From Natronoglycomyces albus (GTDB lineage Bacteria; Actinomycetota; Actinomycetes; Mycobacteriales; Micromonosporaceae), in the NCBI RefSeq assembly GCF_016925535.1, contig NZ_CP070496.1:1240001-1304000 (forward strand): a DNA stretch of 64,000 nucleotides, written 5' to 3'. A model generated the notes under the pieces. The model saw only the letters and a program-made list of their open reading frames with translations, was not told where the DNA came from and did no database searches. A program made the translations under genes and the position numbers. How positions within the stretch are numbered: position 1 is the first letter of the stretch; each line of letters begins with the position of its first letter. Of this stretch, positions 26,581 to 37,109 are shown one piece after another.

Positions 26581-27234
26581 TCATGTCCCCACCAGGCCCG
26601 ACTCATAAGCGGCTATGACCGCCTGCGTACGGTCCCGCACCGCCAGCTTGCGGTAGATGCTGCCCACATGCGACTTCACGGTCTCGCGCCCGAGGAATAG
26701 CTCGCGGGCGATCTCGTCATTGGACAATCCGTTCGCCATCAGTTTCAACACTTGCGACTCACGTTGACTCAAACCCGCCTGGGCCAGCAGATGAGGTTTA
26801 AGCCCTCGATGCGACGTGGCCAGGCGACGAATCTTGTCGGGAAACAGCAACGAATCCGAGCGCGCCAATAGCCGGATTGCCGCCAGCAAGTCATCGGCTC
26901 GGGTGCGTTTCAACAGAAATCCGTCCGCGCCAGCTTGCAGCGCCTGATACACGTAGTCATCGTTCTCGAAGGTGGTCACGATCAATATTTTTGGCACGGT
27001 GAGGTGAGTCCCCGCGCCTTCTAGAATCTGCCTGGTCGCCGCGATGCCGTTGACCTTGGGCATCCGCACATCCATGAGAATGACATCGGCGGCGCCAGAA
27101 CGAGCGATATTGACCGCCCCGACGCCATCGGCGGCCTCGGCCACCACTTCCATGTCCTCCTCAGCCGAAATGATCGCGCTGAAGCCGGTCCGGATCAGGT
27201 CCTCGTCATCGACTATTGCCACCCGCAGCGTCAT
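26581..27234 (-). CDS. NarL/FixJ-type (LuxR) response regulator
   Basis: The protein has 217 residues. The receiver domain spans 1-120: acidic pair VDDED, phospho-acceptor Asp in VILMDVRMP, Thr in LIVTTF and Lys in FLLKRTRAD. The C-terminal LuxR helix-turn-helix (LSQRESQVLKLMANGLSNDEIARELF ... ETVKSHVGSIYRKL) follows. It should be phosphorylated by the kinase encoded immediately upstream, with which it overlaps by 4 bases. It lies convergent to the ABC operon, a plausible but unproven target. Confidence 0.93.
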   Translation of the reverse strand: MTLRVAIVDDEDLIRTGFSAIISAEEDMEVVAEAADGVGAVNIARSGAADVILMDVRMPKVNGIAATRQILEGAGTHLTVPKILIVTTFENDDYVYQALQAGADGFLLKRTRADDLLAAIRLLARSDSLLFPDKIRRLATSHRGLKPHLLAQAGLSQRESQVLKLMANGLSNDEIARELFLGRETVKSHVGSIYRKLAVRDRTQAVIAAYESGLVGT

Positions 27235-28448
27235 CTGGTTCCCTTCCAGGGCAGCCGGGCGCGTACGACCCAGCGTCCCGCAGTGGTTGTGATATCGACT
27301 GATCCTCCGAATGCGCTAGCCCGCTGGCGAATGCCTTCGAGCCCGTGGCCGGTGCGACCAGCTCGTGGTGACTGCGTAGGTCGGTACGCATTGGCAACGC
27401 GAATGTCCAACCAATCCTCGTCTTGAACAATTCCCAGCTCGGCCGCGGAGCCGCTGCCATGCCGCAACACGTTCGTCAGACACTCCTGCACGATCCGGTA
27501 GGCCTCCCGAGACACCTGCGGGTTGAGACTATCCACGTCGATTGTCACTGACGCCGTCACTGAAGCACCGCAGCTGGCCACGAGATCTTCCCAGGACTCC
27601 AAGCCCCTTTGCGGTGCACTGTCGGCGGTCGCGTCGCCTCGAAGAACTCCCAGCATCCCGTCCAGTTCCTCCAGAGCCGCCCGAGCGGTCTCCGCTGAGG
27701 TCTCCATTGCTTGCCTAGCCGATTCCGGCTTGGTCTCCACCAACCGGGTGGCTGCCTCAGACTGAATCGAGATGACCGACAGCGCGTGCCCGACCGAATC
27801 ATGCAGCTGGCGGGCAATCCGGTTGCGCGCCTCCAACTTGGCAGTCTGCGCCTCAGCCGCCGCGATCCGCTCTCGCGCAGTCGGCCCCAACAAACCAGGC
27901 GCGCTCCGCCGGAAAACAGCCAAGACCCCCGCGACCACATACACCAAAGTCAGCAGCAGAAGGACGCCTACCAGCGGCCCCATCGGGTCATGCCACCCCG
28001 ATTCCAGCAGAGGACTCTCAAACTGCATTGGGTCGGATGTCAATGGCAAGATAGAGATGGCGATCGCGAAAGGAACCAACGCTAGAGTTGCCCCGGCCAG
28101 CAGAGCCCCGATCGACAAGTGCAGCGTGTACCACAGGGCGGTACGCCAGCGGGTCGCCCACGAAGCCACCTCTTGCGAGTCCTCCAGCCGCACCTGAAGT
28201 AGGTGGCGCACCATAGCTCGCAGCAGCTGGCGGATCGGCAGTACCAACCCAGTCAGAAACACCAATGGCAGCACGGCAAAGAACGTGTCGAACTGGTAGA
28301 TCGCCATGCCATCGATCTCGGGTGACTGACTGAGACTGATGACCACCTGGCCCAGAATCATGTAGGGCATCAGCAGTGCCCCACCGAGGATCAGCCAGAC
28401 CCAACCCAGATAGGTCGAGCGGCTATATAGCGGTCGCAGGAATGTCAT
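27231..28448 (-). CDS. Sensor histidine kinase (HisKA_3 type)
   Basis: The 405-residue membrane kinase has four hydrophobic helices in the first 185 residues with a short loop between the last two. The HisKA_3 helix follows (RNRIARQLHDSVGHALSVIS, phospho-accepting His), then the ATPase domain with N box YRIVQECLTNVLRHG and GHGLEGIRQRASAFGG. It is the partner of the downstream response regulator. Its start (ATG 28448) overlaps the stop of a 59-residue membrane-protein gene. The short sensor region suggests it senses membrane events or a partner protein rather than binding a soluble ligand. Confidence 0.93.
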   Translation of the reverse strand: MTFLRPLYSRSTYLGWVWLILGGALLMPYMILGQVVISLSQSPEIDGMAIYQFDTFFAVLPLVFLTGLVLPIRQLLRAMVRHLLQVRLEDSQEVASWATRWRTALWYTLHLSIGALLAGATLALVPFAIAISILPLTSDPMQFESPLLESGWHDPMGPLVGVLLLLTLVYVVAGVLAVFRRSAPGLLGPTARERIAAAEAQTAKLEARNRIARQLHDSVGHALSVISIQSEAATRLVETKPESARQAMETSAETARAALEELDGMLGVLRGDATADSAPQRGLESWEDLVASCGASVTASVTIDVDSLNPQVSREAYRIVQECLTNVLRHGSGSAAELGIVQDEDWLDIRVANAYRPTQSPRAGRTGHGLEGIRQRASAFGGSVDITTTAGRWVVRARLPWKGTR

Positions 28449-28630: not shown

Positions 28631-29485
28631 CTACCCCTGTCCGCATGAGGAACAGGGCTGAGAAGTTGCCCGTGCGAAGATCACCGTCACCGCCAGCAGA
28701 CACAACCCCCACACCAGAAACGGCGGATACACGGCCAGACCAAGCCACCACGCCAACGCCTCGTCGATGACCGTCCCCCGGATGGCCTGCAACGCCGCGA
28801 AGCCGCTGCCAATGATTCCCAATGGCACCAGCATGGCGATTCCGGCACTGGCGGGGAGTATCAGCATCAGGCGCGGAAGGCGAGGCCAGCGGTAGGCCAT
28901 GGCCATGATCATGACCGACCCCAGCGCGGACATGACCACGGTGTCACCGAATCCTGGGCTCCAGAAAGTAACCCCATCGAATATTGAGGGGTCACTCAAG
29001 GCAAAAGTGCCACCGAGGGCCCAATGCGTCTTCAAAGCCGCATATGCCCCAGTGGGGAGAAGGGAAAACCAGGCCAGTAGCTTCCCGAGGGCGAGGTGGT
29101 CGCGTCGTTGGGCCGCTGTACGGCCGCAGCGGACACAACTGGCCCGTAGCCGACGGCCACGCCGGATCAACCCGATCGCGAGGCCGACCGCCCCTGCCAT
29201 CGCCGCGACCCGAACCAAAAGATAGGGCCAGTCCGGTTTGAATGCGAGAACGTCGACGCTGGAGCTGAATACCCCGACGATGGCCATGACGACGAACATG
29301 ATGTCCAAGCCCAGTGTGCCCTTGTAGGCCATCGCGACGGCGACCATCCCGGCTACACCAATCCAGCCGAAGACTTGCGTCAATCTGTCTCGAGGTGAGA
29401 TTTCCTCAGCTTTGGGGGAGTGGTTGAAGTGAGGGGCAGACCTAACCCCAGGGCGGTGATCAGAGTTTTCCTCAGTGAGTTTCAT
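28631..29485 (-). CDS. Polytopic membrane protein with two CxxC motifs
   Basis: The 284-residue protein has about seven hydrophobic helices after a hydrophilic 30-residue start. Two CxxC pairs, CVRCG near residue 117 (in a basic loop between helices) and CSSCG at the extreme C-terminus, could bind metal or respond to redox state. No family recognised. It is the first gene of the operon with the small membrane protein, kinase and response regulator (6-base gap, then two overlaps), so it may feed the kinase. Confidence 0.65.
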   Translation of the reverse strand: MKLTEENSDHRPGVRSAPHFNHSPKAEEISPRDRLTQVFGWIGVAGMVAVAMAYKGTLGLDIMFVVMAIVGVFSSSVDVLAFKPDWPYLLVRVAAMAGAVGLAIGLIRRGRRLRASCVRCGRTAAQRRDHLALGKLLAWFSLLPTGAYAALKTHWALGGTFALSDPSIFDGVTFWSPGFGDTVVMSALGSVMIMAMAYRWPRLPRLMLILPASAGIAMLVPLGIIGSGFAALQAIRGTVIDEALAWWLGLAVYPPFLVWGLCLLAVTVIFARATSQPCSSCGQG

Positions 29486-29625: not shown

Positions 29626-30546
29626 TTAACCGGTTGCGCTGGCCGCAGCCTGCCGCAGCGATCGCAACAGCAGCCGAGAATCGCCCAGTTTACGCTTGAG
29701 CTGCCGTTCCAACCCGGCGATCGGCGTGAGGTTTTGCGGAGCCCGGGCGTCCTTGTGTAGCGACGCCGCCATACGTGGGAGTGCCTGCGTAGTTCGGTCA
29801 GCCAACGCCACCGCGTGCTCGGAGGTGAGCTCGGCGGCAGCTTCCAATCGGGCGATTCCCGCCCAACCCTCGCTTTGCGAACCGGGGAGTCGCAGATACC
29901 AGCAATAGCGCGGCCAGGTCGTCGTCAGGTGAAACACGGGCGTGCGCTGACCGGCCCGCAGATGGGTGACGACCCGTGACAACTCCGGGCCCAAATAGGA
30001 ACGTTGGTGGCTCTTGATATATCCGACCGCGTCGTCAAGCGCCGTCCGGCCCCGCAGCGACCCGTCCATGACCAACAATTCGCACCTGCCCGCCACCTCG
30101 TTCGAGACTGCGCGCTCAAGCTGGTCGCGTGACTTTTGCACGGCCCCAGCTAGGTCGTCTAGTTCTGATTCGGGCACCGAATGCAGTGGGTAATACGGTG
30201 TTTGTGGTCCTTGAGCGGCTCCGGTGAAGAGGGCCCGATCGACTTCGGCGACACTCAGGTGGGCGCTAGCGGCGTCGATATCGCAGATGACCGCTCCGGC
30301 CGCCCACGAGGCGCACAGTCCAGCAAAGCGGTTGTCATCCTCATCGGTGAGTTCCACATGCGCGTCAAAGCGTTGCACCCCATCCACCAGCGCGACGCTG
30401 CGGGGACCGCCAGGGGCCGCATCGCAGGCTCGCCACCGATGGGCCGACATCTCCACATCGGCCTCAACCACGGCACTACCACTGTGGGTGGGGCCGTCGG
30501 CGTTGTCGGTGAACGCCGGATTCCACTGCGAAATGGACAGGTGCAT
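29626..30546 (-). CDS. nurA: NurA-type DNA end-resection nuclease
   Basis: The 306-residue protein has the NurA motifs: ALVDGVQRF (first metal Asp near residue 55), LLVMDGSLRGR (second Asp) and GYIKSHQRSYLG (conserved Lys), then a late YCWYLRLPG strand. NurA is a 5'-3' exo/endonuclease that works inside or beside the HerA hexamer to resect DNA ends with Mre11-Rad50. The gene overlaps the SbcC stop (TGATG), and the HerA gene lies in the same operon. That context makes the assignment much firmer than sequence alone. Confidence 0.85.
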   Translation of the reverse strand: MHLSISQWNPAFTDNADGPTHSGSAVVEADVEMSAHRWRACDAAPGGPRSVALVDGVQRFDAHVELTDEDDNRFAGLCASWAAGAVICDIDAASAHLSVAEVDRALFTGAAQGPQTPYYPLHSVPESELDDLAGAVQKSRDQLERAVSNEVAGRCELLVMDGSLRGRTALDDAVGYIKSHQRSYLGPELSRVVTHLRAGQRTPVFHLTTTWPRYCWYLRLPGSQSEGWAGIARLEAAAELTSEHAVALADRTTQALPRMAASLHKDARAPQNLTPIAGLERQLKRKLGDSRLLLRSLRQAAASATG

Positions 30547-32981
30547 CAGTTCGCGATTCTCTCTACCGATGAGCCGTTCATGTCCTTGGCAACATGGAAA
30601 CGGACCGGCACTCGCTCGGCCAGCGCGGCCACGTGCGTGACGACCCCGACTTGGCGGTTACGAGTGAGCGTGAGCGCCTCTAGTGTGGTGGCGACTTGGT
30701 CGAGGCTGTCGGGGTCGAGGGTGCCGAATCCTTCGTCGAGCAGGATCGAATCAAGGTGTGCTCCCGCCTGAGAGAGACCGGCGAGTTGTTCGCTGAGCGC
30801 CAGTGCCAGGGCCAGCGACGCGGCGAAGGTCTCTCCGCCCGAGAGGCTGCGGGCGGGGCGTTGTAGGTCGGCGTCGTGGTGGTCGATGACCCAGAATTCC
30901 TTGTCGCGGTAGATGAGGTCGTATTGCCCCCGGGTGATCTGGTGCAGGATTTCGGTGGCACCGGCGACCAGTTCGGTGAGCGCTTCGGTGAGCAGCCAGT
31001 CCATGAACCGGCCCGCTTGTAGGTGTGCGGCCAGGTCTTTGGCGACTTCGGCTTCGCGTTCGTGTTTGGCGCGGTCTGCGTCGAGTTCGGCCCGTTGGGT
31101 TCGGGCAGTGCGCAGCTTCTCGCAGGTGGCTTGGGCTGAGGCGAGAGCGCTGGCGTGGGCGGTGAGGTAGTCGCCGCCGGGACCGACGGCGGGGGAGGAC
31201 ACGTCGACTTCGGACAATTTTTGGTGCAGTCCGGCCTGCAACTTGCGTGCTTCGTGTTCGTGGTTGGCGAGGGTTTGGCGGGCGCGGTCGAGTCCGGATT
31301 GCGCTTCGCTGAGTTGTTGTTTGGCCCAGTCGACCAGTGTGTTCCAGCTCAGCGCGAGGTCTTCGGCGTGGTGGGACGGGGGAGAGAACGGTGCGACGTG
31401 GTCGCGGGCCTGGTGGAATTCGCGCCATGCCTGTTGTAGCTGTTTATCGACCCGCTGCCGGGTTTGTTCGGCCCCTTTGAGCCCGTTGCGGGCGGCTTGG
31501 ACGCGGGCGGCGGCTCCGGTCAGCTTCTTTTGATTCACTTCGGCGTCTGCGCGGCGCTTTTCCAGCGTGGGGATCTTGGGAGCACCCTTGAGGCGGGCTC
31601 GCAGCGCTTTCTTCTCGTCCCGCCGTACCTCTAGCTGAGCCTCGTACTTGTGCAACGTGACGCGTAGTTCATCGGCGTTGCTTTTGGCTTCCTCGTATTC
31701 GAGTTTGGCGATATTGACCGCTTCGCGGGCGGCTTTGTGTTCTGAGGAGATGTCACGGTCGGGCAGGACGGCGACTGTTTGGTCGCACACTGGGCATGGT
31801 TGGCCCACGGCGAGCTCTTCACGGAAGGTGCTGGCCAAGTCGTCGTGTTGCAGTTTGTTCCAGTGTTGACGGGCGATATCGAGTTCTTCTTTCGCCGCCG
31901 TGCACAGCTCGTCGGCGGCTTCGAATTCCTGGCGTTTGGCCTCGGTGAGTTCGGTGCCTTTGGCGAGGTTCTTCTCGCATTCGTCGAGTTGTCGCCATGC
32001 GTTGAGTTGGCCCTCGATCGTGGTCAAATCCAGGTCGGCCAGACTCTGTCGCAGCGCGGTTTCGTCGGCCTCGGCCAGTTCGACCTCCTGGCGTGCTTTA
32101 GCCACCTGCGCGGCGGCCTCGGCCGCCTGATCGGAAATGTCGGGGACTTCGGCGGGTGCCTTTATGTAGGTGAGGCGGCTGATCGTTTGCTCGATCTGGC
32201 TGACCGAGGCGCGAGCGGCCGATAGCTCACCGCTCAACGCGTCTAGCGCGGCCGCGTCGGAGCGCAGGCTCAATGTCATCTGCTCTAGCCGCGCGGCCCG
32301 GTCGATCGCCTGGTCGAGTTCAGTGTCGGACACGAGTGGGATCTTTCCCAGTTGCGCCGACAGCGTGGTCGCGACGGTCTCGGCTTTCGTCCGGCGGGCA
32401 CCTGCGGCGCGTTGGATGTCCCCATAGATCGTGTGCCCGAGTAGGTTCTCCAGAATTTTGCGACGTTCGGCGGCCTTGGCGTGGAGAAACTGTGCGAACT
32501 CTCCCTGCGGTAGCAATACCGATTTGGTGAACTGGTCGAATGGCAGCCCGATGACGCGAGCCATCGCTTCGCTGACGGCGGTCGGTCCAGTAGCCAGGCT
32601 GGTCCCCAGGCTTTCGGCTAGCTCGGTGTCGTCCATCGCGTTGACCGAGTCGGGAAGTTTTTCGGCCGCCGCGTGGCTGGTCTTGACCGCTCCGTGCTTG
32701 TCACGGCGCAGTCGCCGGGTGGCGACGTATTGGGTGTTCCCGGCGGAGAACACGAACCGCACCCGCCCTTCGGCGGCTGAGAGGGCTAGCAACGATTGCA
32801 CTTTTCCCTCGGCCCAACGCGGTGTCTTGCCATAGAGCGCAAAACACATCGCGTCCAAGACAGTGGACTTTCCAGCGCCGGTGGCGCCGGTGAGCGCGAA
32901 GAAGTCCACGCCCGTGAAGTCCAGCGTGACGCTGCGGTTGTATGAGCCGAAGCCTTCCACGTCCAGTCGGATGGGGCGCAT
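30546..32981 (-). CDS. sbcC: SbcC/Rad50-like SMC-family ATPase
   Basis: The protein has 811 residues from ATG 32981 (MRPIRLDVEGFGSYN), which overlaps the SbcD stop as TAATG; the longer frame to 33248 is shadow sequence. Walker A is TGATGAGKST near residue 38. Long coiled-coil arms surround a zinc-hook GQPCPVCDQTV, and the C-terminal ATPase half has a LSGGETF signature and a Walker B ending LLDEGFGTLDPDS. With SbcD it tethers and processes DNA ends. The length is shorter than E. coli SbcC (about 1050) and close to archaeal/actinobacterial Rad50. Confidence 0.93.
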   Translation of the reverse strand: MRPIRLDVEGFGSYNRSVTLDFTGVDFFALTGATGAGKSTVLDAMCFALYGKTPRWAEGKVQSLLALSAAEGRVRFVFSAGNTQYVATRRLRRDKHGAVKTSHAAAEKLPDSVNAMDDTELAESLGTSLATGPTAVSEAMARVIGLPFDQFTKSVLLPQGEFAQFLHAKAAERRKILENLLGHTIYGDIQRAAGARRTKAETVATTLSAQLGKIPLVSDTELDQAIDRAARLEQMTLSLRSDAAALDALSGELSAARASVSQIEQTISRLTYIKAPAEVPDISDQAAEAAAQVAKARQEVELAEADETALRQSLADLDLTTIEGQLNAWRQLDECEKNLAKGTELTEAKRQEFEAADELCTAAKEELDIARQHWNKLQHDDLASTFREELAVGQPCPVCDQTVAVLPDRDISSEHKAAREAVNIAKLEYEEAKSNADELRVTLHKYEAQLEVRRDEKKALRARLKGAPKIPTLEKRRADAEVNQKKLTGAAARVQAARNGLKGAEQTRQRVDKQLQQAWREFHQARDHVAPFSPPSHHAEDLALSWNTLVDWAKQQLSEAQSGLDRARQTLANHEHEARKLQAGLHQKLSEVDVSSPAVGPGGDYLTAHASALASAQATCEKLRTARTQRAELDADRAKHEREAEVAKDLAAHLQAGRFMDWLLTEALTELVAGATEILHQITRGQYDLIYRDKEFWVIDHHDADLQRPARSLSGGETFAASLALALALSEQLAGLSQAGAHLDSILLDEGFGTLDPDSLDQVATTLEALTLTRNRQVGVVTHVAALAERVPVRFHVAKDMNGSSVERIAN

Positions 32982-34141
32982 TATTTCTCCTCGGCGGCGA
33001 CTGTTTGGGTGTCGTCGTACAAGTCTGCAAAGAGCTTGCTGACGGCCTGGTCGTTGTGCCCCTGCTCGGTCAGATAGCTGTCGAACAGTTCCTGTGGGTG
33101 GCGACCCGCGCGCCGTGGGGGTGAGGCGGTAGCGTGACCGGCTTGGAGGACCGGGTCGATCTGGATTTGCAAAGCGCGGGGAAACAGCTCGGTGACTGCG
33201 GCGCGCAAGCCTGATCGCGGCGCTTCTGCGACGACGACTCGCACCCACGCCTCCGGGGGCACCTCGGTTTGCTCTAGCTCCTTCAGGGTGCCCTTGACCG
33301 TGACCAGCGGTAGTGCCTTGGTCAGCGGCACCGTTCGCACTCGCGCGGGGGTGGTCGAGGTGACATCGACGATGGTGACCGAGGGTTGATGGTGCTCCTC
33401 GCCGAAATCGACCGCGATGGGCGCTCCCGCGTAGTGAATGGGGCAGGGGCCGACGATCTTTTGTGCCTTATGCAGATGACCTAGTGCGACGTAGCTGGCT
33501 TGGGGGGGAAAGATCTGCGCGGGAACGACATAGTCTCCGACTGTGTGCACTTCGCGTTCCCCAGCTCCCAGGGTACCGCCGACGACGGTGAGGTGCGCGG
33601 TGATGATGTTGACCTCACCGTCGTCGAAACTCTGGGCCAACTGCGCGACCAGGCGACGCAGGTGGTCGGCGTACGACTGGTCGGCTTCGGCCGCTGTCAA
33701 TGCGAACAGTTCGGCGGCGCGCAGCGCATAGCGCTGGGAGATAAAGGGCAGCGCCGCGACTTTCCATCTTTGACCCCCGGCGGTGGTTCCGGCGATAACA
33801 TGGTCGCTGGCTTTGCCCAGGGCCCCTCGCAGGGAGATTCCGGCGGCCTCGGCCCACCCTCGCCACGCCTCGAGCACCGCCCCCGAGTCGTGGTTGCCCG
33901 CGATAGCCACCACGTCCGCACCAGTGTTGCGCAGCGCCGATAGCGCTCGAGTGAAGGTTTTCTGGGCAGCCGCCGAGGGGGCAGCGGTGTCGAAAAGGTC
34001 GCCAGAGACGATCACCAAGTCAGGCTTTTCTTCCCTCGCGATCGCTACCATCTGGGCGAACACCGCGATTTGTTCGTCTAGACGCGATTGGCCTTTCAGC
34101 GTCAGGCCGGTGTGCCAATCGGACGTGTGCAGGATGCGCAC
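32981..34141 (-). CDS. sbcD: SbcD/Mre11-like DNA repair nuclease
   Basis: The 386-residue calcineurin-type phosphoesterase shows the metal motifs in order: HTSDWHTG, VSGDLFDTAAPS, AIAGNHDS, then TAHLTV and ALGHLHKAQ. This is the nuclease subunit that makes DNA incisions near ends in complex with SbcC/Rad50. The C-terminal capping region follows. It begins 31 bases after the HerA stop and overlaps the SbcC start by one base, so it is the third gene of the resection operon. Confidence 0.94.
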   Translation of the reverse strand: MRILHTSDWHTGLTLKGQSRLDEQIAVFAQMVAIAREEKPDLVIVSGDLFDTAAPSAAAQKTFTRALSALRNTGADVVAIAGNHDSGAVLEAWRGWAEAAGISLRGALGKASDHVIAGTTAGGQRWKVAALPFISQRYALRAAELFALTAAEADQSYADHLRRLVAQLAQSFDDGEVNIITAHLTVVGGTLGAGEREVHTVGDYVVPAQIFPPQASYVALGHLHKAQKIVGPCPIHYAGAPIAVDFGEEHHQPSVTIVDVTSTTPARVRTVPLTKALPLVTVKGTLKELEQTEVPPEAWVRVVVAEAPRSGLRAAVTELFPRALQIQIDPVLQAGHATASPPRRAGRHPQELFDSYLTEQGHNDQAVSKLFADLYDDTQTVAAEEK

Positions 34142-34172
34142 TGTGTCTCCCTCGTATGCGGTGGTGTGGGTG

Positions 34173-35888
34173 CTAGAAGGGGATATCGTCGTCGTGGTCC
34201 GAAAGAGCGAACGGGTCGTGGTGGGCTGTCACCGACGAGGCGGCCGACTTCGGAGGAGGACCGGCCTCCGAGGGCCGAGTGGCCCAGGTGGGGAACGGGA
34301 AATTGACCACCAAGGGGACCGGTAGCTCTGGTTGGGCGACGAACATGGTGCCGGGTTTGGCCATCAGCACGCGCTGGCGTTGTGCTTGGCTAAGAAAACC
34401 GTACTCTGGGCGACCGGCTTCGGCTGCGTCGAGGCGGCCGACGACTTTAATGGCGCTATTGGCCACGATACGCCGTTCCACCTCGGAGGCGGTCTGTTGC
34501 GCGCCGATGAGGATGACCCCCAGCGAGCGGCCACGCTCGGCGATATCGAGCAACAACTCCTTGATGGGGCTGGAGCCTTCGCGAGGCGCGTACTTGTTGA
34601 GCTCATCGAGGACGATGAACTGGAGGGGTCGAGCCGACCCGGCTTTTTCCTTGCGGTCGAATTCGCTGCGCAAGATGACGCCTACGACGAATCGTTGGGC
34701 TCGGTCGGGAAGATTGTGCAGGTCAACGACGGTCACTTGGGCGTCGGTGGTGAACGAGTCGGCTTGTGGAGCCAGGTCGCCGCGCACCAGCCGTCCCACA
34801 TCCCGTTCGGAGGCGACCAGGCGACGAATGAAGGCGTTGACGGTACCTAGCCCGACGGCGCTACCGGCCCACTGGGTCCGGTCGTCCTCATCGGAGAGTC
34901 GGTCGCAGATGTATTGCACGAGACCGTCATAGGTGGTCAGGTGTTGGCCGTCGATGACGATGGAGCCGTTGCCCTTGGCCTGCGCGGTCTTTTCCAACTG
35001 CGCCGCGACCTGGTGAACAACCATTGTGTACTGTTGCCGGTCGTCGTCGGCGTCGGCGAAGACAAAGGGTAGTAGCTTTTGGTGGCAAAACTGGTCGAGA
35101 GTCCAGTAGAAGGGCGCCACACCCGTGGAGCGGCACGCCACGTCGGGGGTGCCGTTGACGTCGCCGGGGCGCGGCGGGGCCAGCACTGACACCGAGGCGA
35201 ACGCGCCGGGGCTGAGGCCAAGTCGGTGATAGTGATCGTCGATCGTCTCATCGGTGCGCGAGTTCGGATGGTCGAGCAGGAGCAGATCCTCGCCTTTGAC
35301 GTTGAAGATGAGCGCCTTGGTGTTCTTCGCTTCGCCGCCCAGCGCCTGTGAATTCAGCATCGAATACAGCAACCACGTGGCAAAGGACGTCTTGGTGGCG
35401 ACGCCGCTGACGCCAGAGATCGAAACGTGCGCTCCCCGGGTGCCATCGAGGAAATCCGGATTCAGCACTACTGGTAGCCCGTCACGGGAGAATCCGAGCG
35501 GAATTTTGCGCGTCATACCGTCGAAGAACAAGGCGCGTTCCCGGTCGGCTCCCTCAGCTCGGTGCACTGGCTGGCCTGGCTGAGGGGGAACGAACACTTC
35601 GGGCTCGACCCGGGTGACGGTGACTTCGGCGGCTTCTTGAATTTGGGCGGGGAGCAACCCGGAGGCGATATCGAAAACATCGGAATCGAACTGCGCTCCC
35701 TCGTGCCGGGAACGTACAGCGGTGACGACACCCGAGGTTTCCACCTGGCCGACCCCGGGCACCGTGCGCAGCGTGGTGAGGACATCGTCGAGCTGGGCGT
35801 ATTGGCCTTCGCTGACGCCGACCCAGAATGACAGTGGGGTGGAATCCTCAGTGCCGAGAACCCGGCCCACGGGTGCGGTCTCAGTCAT
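34173..35888 (-). CDS. herA: HerA-like hexameric DNA translocase ATPase
   Basis: The protein has 571 residues. The first 150 form a HAS-barrel-like beta domain. The ATPase core has an unusual P-loop (SGVSGVATKTSF near residue 158, with Thr instead of Gly before the Lys) and Walker B LQFIVLDELNKYAP. An arginine-finger region (TASEVERRIVANSAIKVVGRLD) and the HerA/FtsK-like KPGTMFVAQPELPVPLVV strand follow. HerA partners NurA and stimulates Mre11-Rad50, and all three are encoded directly downstream. The start lies 4 bases after the stop of the RibD-like gene. Confidence 0.9.
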   Translation of the reverse strand: MTETAPVGRVLGTEDSTPLSFWVGVSEGQYAQLDDVLTTLRTVPGVGQVETSGVVTAVRSRHEGAQFDSDVFDIASGLLPAQIQEAAEVTVTRVEPEVFVPPQPGQPVHRAEGADRERALFFDGMTRKIPLGFSRDGLPVVLNPDFLDGTRGAHVSISGVSGVATKTSFATWLLYSMLNSQALGGEAKNTKALIFNVKGEDLLLLDHPNSRTDETIDDHYHRLGLSPGAFASVSVLAPPRPGDVNGTPDVACRSTGVAPFYWTLDQFCHQKLLPFVFADADDDRQQYTMVVHQVAAQLEKTAQAKGNGSIVIDGQHLTTYDGLVQYICDRLSDEDDRTQWAGSAVGLGTVNAFIRRLVASERDVGRLVRGDLAPQADSFTTDAQVTVVDLHNLPDRAQRFVVGVILRSEFDRKEKAGSARPLQFIVLDELNKYAPREGSSPIKELLLDIAERGRSLGVILIGAQQTASEVERRIVANSAIKVVGRLDAAEAGRPEYGFLSQAQRQRVLMAKPGTMFVAQPELPVPLVVNFPFPTWATRPSEAGPPPKSAASSVTAHHDPFALSDHDDDIPF

Positions 35889-35892
35889 ATAC

Positions 35893-36630
35893 CTATCCTC
35901 GCAGGTAACGCAGCATCAAATTATCTGCCTCGTGCAGGGTGTGTCGCAAACGCAGGTTGTGCACAGCGCTCCTGGCGGGACCCGCGCTGATGCGACTGGC
36001 ACCCGGTCCCGTCAAGAGCGGAGACACTGTCAGGCACAGTTCGTCGACCAAGTTGGCCGCACTCAGGTAACCGAATGTCATGGCACCCCCTTCGCACAGG
36101 ATTTGCTTGAGCCCCCGTTTCCTTAGCGCGGCGATGGCAGCGGGAAAGTCGATCCCATCATCGCCTGCGGCTATGACATCGGCGACCTGTCGCAGGTCAC
36201 GGACGCGCTCGGTTGGGGCGGCGGCCGAGCAGATGACGATGGGGCGGCGGGGAGCTTTGGTGAAGAGTTCACTGCCGGGGTCGAGGCTGGCCGAACCGGA
36301 TACGACCGCCATGATGGGGACGTCCTCCATGCCGTGGGCGCGACGCCATGCGGTGCGGCCCTGGTCGAGGACCAATTCCCGATAGTTTTCGGCCTTGACG
36401 GTCCCGGCCCCCGCCAAAAGCACATCACAACGGGCGCGCAGCACTTTGAAGACGCGCTTGTCGGCGGTCCCCGAGAGCCCGCCAGATCGTCCCTCCACTT
36501 CAACGGCGCCATCGGCCGAGGTCACGAAGTTGACCCGTAGCCAGCTTTCGGCCTCCGCCGGTGGCGCGTACGCCGCGTAGAGCTGCTGTTCACTAAGGTC
36601 ACTGAGTTCAGAAAACCAAAATCCAGACAC
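35893..36630 (-). CDS. RibD C-terminal (DHFR-like) pyrimidine reductase family protein
   Basis: The 245-residue protein matches the RibD_C fold: LRVNFVTSADGAVEVEGRSGGLS near the start, DVLLAGAGTVKAENY, VVSGSASLD, and KQILCEGGAMTFGYL, the strand and loop that bind NADPH. RibD_C enzymes reduce the ribosyl chain in riboflavin synthesis, but stand-alone actinobacterial members often have other or unknown substrates. A GTG start gives the usual N-terminus. It is the first gene of the HerA operon, only 4 bases upstream of herA, and no riboflavin gene is nearby. That makes its role here an open question. Confidence 0.82.
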   Translation of the reverse strand: MSGFWFSELSDLSEQQLYAAYAPPAEAESWLRVNFVTSADGAVEVEGRSGGLSGTADKRVFKVLRARCDVLLAGAGTVKAENYRELVLDQGRTAWRRAHGMEDVPIMAVVSGSASLDPGSELFTKAPRRPIVICSAAAPTERVRDLRQVADVIAAGDDGIDFPAAIAALRKRGLKQILCEGGAMTFGYLSAANLVDELCLTVSPLLTGPGASRISAGPARSAVHNLRLRHTLHEADNLMLRYLRG

Positions 36631-37109
36631 GTGGACACCCTAGCCCGACTAGGGCGTCTGGGTATGAGCAGTGGGCCACCTGTGCTGGTCCGGGCCAAGG
36701 TGTGCCCCGGGGTGAAGGGTTCCACCGGGAGCCCAGCGCAGCGGCGAATGTGCTATCGGGAAAGGGAGGAAAGCGACTAGAGGCACTTTTATGACCTGCT
36801 CGGGTCGCGATCATCCTTGGAGGTTTCCGTCGGTCCCAGGGGTGGACTCCGGAAGTTACCGAGCGGTAGCATATGGGGGAGAGCGATGGCACAGGGTTGA
36901 CTGCGCCAGCCACACGTCCGCTTCGCCGAGGATTCCCTACGCTACGACTTGGCCGCAACCAAGAGCGACACGTCGTCTCAGCCCCGCCACGCGGGGTGCC
37001 GCCAGAAACCTCGAATGGCCGAGGGCAGGACCGTAACGTGCAGGTACGCGCAGTCGACGACCAACGCAGCGCCACGAACGATGTCACACAGACGACGAGG
37101 AGTCCACTC
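36631..37109. other. Divergent intergenic region
   Basis: About 480 bases lie between the start of the RibD-like gene (HerA operon) and the SDR gene. Open frames here lack ribosome-binding sites. It should hold the promoter of the HerA operon on the minus strand and that of the SDR gene on the plus strand. No clear operator was seen. Confidence 0.4.

Follow-up and report, generated by a model that had tools for sequence, protein, structure and literature searches.

Bacterial HerA-NurA pairs have been studied in Deinococcus, Thermus and Thermotoga (PMC9960219, PMC4663267). In Deinococcus radiodurans, the two proteins are reported to perform a translocation-driven resection of the 5′ strand and leave a 3′ tail (PMC9960219). 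The same source identifies D53 of the D. radiodurans NurA (drNurA) as the catalytic aspartate, assisted by K201 and R309. In the partner protein (drHerA), mutation of the Walker A lysine, K175, impaired the ATPase, mutation of R96 had no effect, and R154 was proposed from the structure to be a second neighbour-subunit arginine contacting the gamma-phosphate (PMC9960219). Deletion of nurA/herA in D. radiodurans led to a roughly 10-fold higher tolerance of UV and mitomycin C, so a straightforward role in repair in vivo is disputed; the in vivo role of bacterial HerA-NurA is called controversial in PMC9960219, and lower recombination of the mutants is mentioned in PMC4663267. PMC4663267 also describes the link of sbcCD with HerA-NurA in D. 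radiodurans as still to be uncovered. In archaea, herA, mre11, rad50 and nurA form one operon (Constantinesco 2002, 2004; Hopkins and Paull 2008, as cited in PMC4663267), and Mre11 interacts with HerA (PMC2288612). The bacterial and archaeal types of HerA and NurA share less than 20% identity (PMC9960219).

We analyzed a 64,000-nucleotide stretch (the window) of the Natronoglycomyces albus chromosome NZ_CP070496.1, and in it the genes at window positions 29626-36630. An original prediction, made from this sequence, had described five tightly packed minus-strand genes, two junctions being gaps of 4 and 31 bases and the other two overlaps of a single base, and the ORF coordinates agree (Table 1). 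The 4-base gap lies between the reductase and HerA genes and the 31-base gap between those of HerA and SbcD, while SbcD overlaps SbcC in TAATG and SbcC overlaps NurA in TGATG. SbcC is given from its ATG, compared with 900 residues for the upstream-extended version in the mechanical ORF list. The predicted identities of HerA, Mre11/SbcD, Rad50/SbcC and NurA were likewise borne out by profile searches, hallmark motifs and the predicted NurA fold. Taken together with the comparisons below, four of the five genes very probably make up a resection set, and the remaining one, for an unrelated metabolic reductase, probably just adjoins it.

Table 1. Genes of the cluster, in window coordinates
Gene product	Position	Strand	Length and start
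RibD_C-type reductase	36630-35893	minus	245 aa, GTG start
HerA	35888-34173	minus	571 aa
SbcD	34141-32981	minus	386 aa, GTG start
SbcC	32981-30546	minus	811 aa, ATG start
NurA	30546-29626	minus	306 aa

Annotation at the level of Pfam overlooks HerA and NurA proteins of this kind. For HerA, Pfam gave DUF87 at 11.8 bits, under the cut-off of 23.2, and NCBIfam returned weak matches alone (0.016 for the archaeal-type HerA model). For NurA, the Pfam family scored 18.7 bits against a cut-off of 21, a genome-wide search with the same family gave no match at E ≤ 0.001, and there was no useful match in NCBIfam. We built an alignment of each protein with its relatives (from Actinomycetota, from plasmids of a cyanobacterium and a member of Chloroflexota, and from a Marinitoga phage) and searched the resulting profiles against solved structures. 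The HerA profile matched drHerA (PDB 7f6d/7wrw/7wrx) with an E value of 1.2e-185 over profile positions 5 to 549 of 573. The next HerA structures, which we take to be those of defence systems, followed at 1.7e-8 or weaker and over a partial stretch.

In a pairwise alignment, the window HerA was 53% identical to drHerA over 531 residues, and 9 of the 11 functional positions compared were the same. K175, T176, K217, D220, D487, E488, R495, R513 and R552 of drHerA correspond to K166, T167, K198, D201, D428, E429, R436, R454 and R493 in the window. The kept residues thus include those of Walker A (K166/T167) and Walker B (D428/E429), the trans-arginine R454 (drHerA R513) and the DNA-translocation arginines R436 and R493. 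The two positions that differed in this alignment were both arginines of drHerA, R154 and R96, replaced by D145 and E88; R154 was not counted as family-defining. The Walker A motif GVSGVATKTS is one residue longer than GxxGxGKS, and its D. radiodurans counterpart reads GISGVATKTS. The protein is very probably a hexameric DNA translocase of the bacterial (Deinococcus) type, as predicted from these sequence comparisons.

The NurA profile matched the NurA of PDB 7f6d at 1e-40 and Thermotoga TM1739 at 7.3e-20. Structure prediction for positions 29626-30546, a check proposed with the original prediction, gave a NurA fold (pLDDT 89.2, pTM 0.87; 40-row alignment). For HerA (34173-35888), the profile comparison above took the place of this check. 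The model superimposed best on 1zup_A (Z 22.9, rmsd 3.0, 255 residues aligned) and 7f6d_G (Z 22.8, rmsd 2.9, 282 aligned), followed by the archaeal 2ygk_A (Z 15.3, rmsd 4.3, 225 aligned); lower matches were chain G of TdpAB (Z 13.6), other archaeal NurA proteins (12.9 or less) and endonuclease V (10.8 or less). D55, K178 and R268 of the window protein correspond to drNurA D53, K201 and R309, making all three compared positions identical, and they are invariant across 22 aligned proteins. W8 is also invariant, and drNurA has a tryptophan at residue 8 too, a likeness by residue number and not by alignment. Since both the fold and the residues are present, we attribute the shortfall in Pfam to the score convention of the library. 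The gene very probably encodes a bacterial-type NurA, a predicted RNase H-like nuclease.

The two proteins encoded between HerA and NurA were more readily recognized. SbcD scored 175.5 bits with the NCBIfam sbcd model (cut-off 77.65), also matched SbcD structures in the PDB, and carries the motifs DWH, GDLFD and GNHD and the later histidines. SbcC matched NCBIfam sbcc at 1.5e-71 (241.6 bits, below the cut-off of 478.5) and Pfam AAA_23 and SbcC_Walker_B at 7.2e-20 and 2.2e-11, with Walker A at residue 32, a CPVC zinc hook at residue 396 and LSGGE at residue 713. The copy in this cluster is the sole SbcD gene above the cut-off in the N. albus genome. The genome also encodes two adjacent proteins (1124 and 1062 residues) that both combine UvrD helicase domains with PDDEXK_1, presumably an AdnAB layout. 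Because such a pair is present, HerA-NurA would add to the normal helicase-nuclease and not substitute for it.

To compare the arrangement in relatives, we used 80 named HerA loci from Glycomyces, Stackebrandtia, Micromonospora, Actinoplanes and others. Downstream of HerA, SbcD and SbcC were each found in 78 loci and NurA in 68. The contig ends in 11 of the 12 loci without NurA. The genuine exception is a metagenome bin (L073), which has no SbcD, SbcC or NurA in the 6 kb downstream of HerA. Gaps of at most 50 bases separate HerA from SbcD in 62 of 78 loci, SbcD from SbcC in 67 of 78 and SbcC from NurA in 46 of 68; the last gap exceeds 200 bases in 10 of the 68. One Glycomyces locus has a carbonic anhydrase gene inserted between sbcC and nurA (L059:15397-16185), and another a gene for a TnpB-like protein between the reductase gene and herA (L061:8677-9966).

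HerA was found in all 250 sampled Micromonosporaceae genomes, representing 38 of 38 genera, and in 61 of 296 genomes across Actinomycetota at E 1e-50 (the counts include N. albus), which runs against the earlier view of the set as rare in actinomycetes. Long HerA matches, one of them partial, occurred in 20 of 296 genomes across the class Actinomycetes, and none of the 20 came from a large neighbouring Mycobacteriales family (f8). As a separate observation, two adjacent fragments of a HerA N terminus in one genome (G050:C44:31766-32064), of 59% and 43% identity and with an in-frame TAG in the second, may be what is left of a decayed herA.

We then followed joint inheritance in 52 genomes, namely 41 with long HerA matches (23 Micromonosporaceae and 18 from other families) and 11 without HerA. 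From the 296-genome class sample, genomes with long HerA matches entered this set, and HerA-negative ones only if they were already in it. Three fragmented or incomplete genomes (G002, G005, G024) and one with a partial match (G171) were left out of the positives, and three incomplete ones (G029, G035, G037) out of the negatives. G039 and G040 were scored as negative, with matches of only about 100 residues (4.8e-7 and 2.4e-4). NurA was detected in 41 of 41 HerA-positive and 0 of 11 HerA-negative genomes. The best SbcD match in the 40 other HerA-positive genomes was 43 to 67% identical to the window SbcD, compared with 31 to 38% in six of the HerA-negative genomes and no match at E 1e-10 in the remaining five. 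All 11 negatives belong to Mycobacteriales and 16 of the positives lie outside that order, so the similarity of SbcD tracks HerA and not taxonomy. In all 41 genomes SbcD is encoded downstream of HerA and on its strand, at a distance of less than 1 kb in 39; the other two have it 3.1 and 4.6 kb away. NurA follows 2.3 to 3.7 kb beyond SbcD in 38 of the 41, an SbcC-sized space from which the position of SbcC in this set is inferred, and is on another contig in three. The order herA-sbcD-(sbcC-sized gap)-nurA therefore also holds outside Mycobacteriales. Because it recurs both there and in the named relatives, the arrangement is not due to chance, and the tight coupling of all four genes noted originally stands. 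We regard the four-gene set as a fixed chromosomal housekeeping feature of Micromonosporaceae.

From these comparisons, it is highly likely that herA, sbcD, sbcC and nurA encode a DNA-end resection machine of the bacterial type to which SbcCD is linked, and that the reductase is a separate neighbour. According to our model, SbcC-SbcD (Rad50-Mre11) would, as expected of its family, capture a broken or protein-blocked DNA end and clip it. A HerA hexamer carrying a NurA dimer on its exit face would then thread onto the opened end. At the cost of ATP, HerA would draw the duplex in, and NurA would split it and cut the 5′ strand repeatedly, so that a 3′ single strand remains for RecA. The module would run beside the AdnAB-like helicase-nuclease as a chromosomal housekeeping set. 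The HerA-NurA steps are carried over from D. radiodurans because of the homology and the identity of the residues compared. That SbcCD hands ends to HerA-NurA we infer from the tight linkage of the genes and their joint inheritance.

The same linkage could reflect shared regulation only, with SbcCD and HerA-NurA acting in separate pathways. This reading agrees with the fact that drNurA-HerA resects DNA by itself (PMC9960219), and PMC4663267 gives the connection with sbcCD in D. radiodurans as not demonstrated. However, a distinct SbcD lineage accompanies HerA beyond Mycobacteriales, a similar linkage occurs in two other phyla (on plasmids of Cyanobacteriota and Chloroflexota), and archaeal Mre11 and HerA interact (PMC2288612), and on this evidence we consider separate pathways unlikely. 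As to how close the connection between SbcCD and HerA-NurA would be, we put forward more tentatively, at somewhat under an even chance, that in Actinobacteria and certain other bacteria one SbcCD lineage is reserved for work with HerA-NurA, the four proteins being one physical machine parallel to AdnAB and distinct from a stand-alone SbcCD. Of the 18 HerA-positive genomes from other families, 11 encode a second, diverged SbcD, as such a division of labour would predict. None was found at E 1e-10 in the 23 Micromonosporaceae genomes, where the HerA-linked copy would thus have to serve both roles.

The original prediction had placed the RibD-type reductase at the head of the resection system. 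Its homology is clear (Pfam RibD_C, 1.5e-31; NCBIfam pyrimidine reductase family PRK14059, 2.2e-56), although it passes no equivalog cut-off, with 191.4 of 226 bits for PRK14059 and 181.8 of 184 and 160.2 of 274 for other models. The nearest solved relative is Mycobacterium tuberculosis Rv2671 (PDB 4xrb; 2.5e-39), which by sequence homology is of the same reductase family. At E 0.001, all 52 genomes of the co-inheritance set have a match, RibD-type paralogues included. Two HerA-negative genomes (G026, 1e-10; G027, 8e-19) and one HerA-positive genome (G048, 7e-21) have weak matches alone. A role for the reductase in resection as part of a five-gene operon, for example to supply or sense a nucleotide or folate cofactor, is favoured by the 4-base gap in the window, by an 8-base overlap between the predicted ORFs of the reductase and herA in 8 of the 9 Glycomyces loci, and by the position of the reductase gene, no more than 5 kb upstream of herA and in the same orientation, in 20 of the 23 Micromonosporaceae genomes. 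Against such a role, 9 of the 11 HerA-negative genomes encode a close relative (E value of 1e-39 or better), and the gene was not seen near herA in any of the 18 HerA-positive genomes of other families. Four of these 18 carry both genes on one contig, 58 kb to 3.9 Mb apart, and 14 carry them on different contigs, although fragmented assemblies could hide linkage in some. In the 73 named relatives, the reductase gene and herA are a median of 199 bases apart (extremes, -8 and 7794); only 11 have a gap of at most 50 bases, and in 22 a predicted opposite-strand ORF lies in between. Of six gap ORFs scanned, three were without a match in Pfam and the others were identified as an M4 peptidase, a GDPD (these two from among the 22 opposite-strand cases) and a TnpB-like protein. 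A part for the reductase in resection is therefore very improbable. Since its relatives occur in HerA-negative genomes, its linkage to herA is seen only in Micromonosporaceae and unrelated genes often lie between the two, we consider the reductase probably an old neighbour with a separate metabolic job, outside the resection module. The 4-base gap makes co-transcription with herA likely in N. albus, where the reductase may share a transcript with it.

Independent promoters between the genes would have spoken against one transcription unit, and we scanned for one promoter type. The sole candidate, a -35/-10-like place before herA at 35949-35920 (2 overlapping matches versus 0.8 expected), is not conserved in 8 close relatives, 6 of them Glycomyces, and is likely due to chance. 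The terminator search found 6, against 6.0 expected; all lie on the plus strand and give no support for an interruption of the operon. The palindrome CCCTAGTCGGGCTAGGG (CCCTAG-N5-CTAGGG) is located at 36638-36654, immediately before the start of the reductase gene, and the pattern searched for occurs in 0 of 73 relatives. On the other side of the cluster, positions 28631-29485 encode a 284-residue membrane-type protein with CxxC motifs; searches for it in Pfam, NCBIfam, PADLOC and, at 1e-5, the 80 related loci came back empty. The ORFs that come next, at 26581-28448, resemble a histidine kinase and a response regulator.

Related phage-defence systems had also been mentioned in the original prediction. 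Defence systems are usually patchy in distribution. That the locus is an anti-phage or anti-plasmid system akin to HerA-Sir2, HerA-DUF4297 or TdpAB is the least probable reading and is not supported: the resemblance of the NurA fold to TdpAB chain G (Z 13.6), the weak PADLOC matches (mad8, 5e-12; HerA, 9e-7), the related sets on plasmids, one of which adjoins TIGR02678/TIGR02680/DUF2397 genes, and the nurA-herA pair of a Marinitoga phage stand against a HerA found in 250 of 250 sampled Micromonosporaceae genomes, presumed defence-system HerA structures that reach 1.7e-8 at best, and only over part of the length, compared with 1.2e-185 for drHerA, and a NurA without any PADLOC match. Neither a Sir2 nor a DUF4297 partner was found beside HerA among the six proteins scanned with Pfam, NCBIfam and PADLOC.

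Mobile elements provided several separate observations. Marinitoga camini virus 1 (L140, 2690-5398) carries an annotated Rad50/Mre11-associated exonuclease and a HerA 24% identical to that of the window, with no sbcCD in the stretch shown. When viral contigs were searched with the HerA alignment, a single relative of 27% identity emerged (L144); in the NurA alignment, no segment was sufficiently conserved for such a scan. A gene for an ImmA/IrrE family metallopeptidase lies near the HerA cluster in two phyla, on the Streptomyces plasmid NZ_CP134205.1 (L142, 1-15447) and on a Candidatus Chlorohelix plasmid (L143, 4834-12891), which might point to damage-responsive control. On the Streptomyces plasmid, TIGR02678/TIGR02680/DUF2397 genes, which we assume to be Wadjet-like, adjoin the HerA cluster.

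Returning to the resection module, the locus presents a complete archaeal-style set, built of bacterial-type proteins, in a mesophilic bacterial family. Because the four genes stay together on the chromosome throughout a large family that can be cultured, the question of how HerA-NurA and SbcCD are connected becomes testable in mesophilic actinomycetes. We found no description of the actinobacterial four-gene set in the titles and abstract openings listed, a coverage outside which most subscription journals fall.

Compared with D. radiodurans, both HerA and NurA are homologous over most of their length, HerA at 53% identity, and the two organisms have in common the unusual Walker A GxSGVATKTS, the overall NurA fold, and 9 of 11 HerA and 3 of 3 NurA positions. 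The differences are that R154 and R96 of drHerA are not kept in the window, and that sbcD and sbcC lie between herA and nurA, whereas in D. radiodurans nurA and herA are treated together as an operon (PMC9960219). Plasmids of a cyanobacterium (AP018315) and a member of Chloroflexota (NZ_CP128402) carry a run of genes for HerA, SbcD and SbcC together with a hypothetical protein alignable with NurA; their HerA proteins are 48% and 28%, and their NurA-like proteins 30% and 24%, identical to those of the window, respectively. In these clusters the NurA-like gene comes first and the location is a plasmid, whereas in the window nurA is last and the set is chromosomal. The archaeal herA-mre11-rad50-nurA operon holds the same four functions in one operon, and to that extent the original description of an archaeal-type resection set was right. 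The HerA and NurA of the window are, however, of the bacterial (Deinococcus) type, as reflected in the NurA model, with a Z of 15.3 to the archaeal 2ygk and 22.8 to 7f6d_G. HerA-NurA and the archaeal four-gene operon were already known; what is added here is the conserved actinobacterial set.
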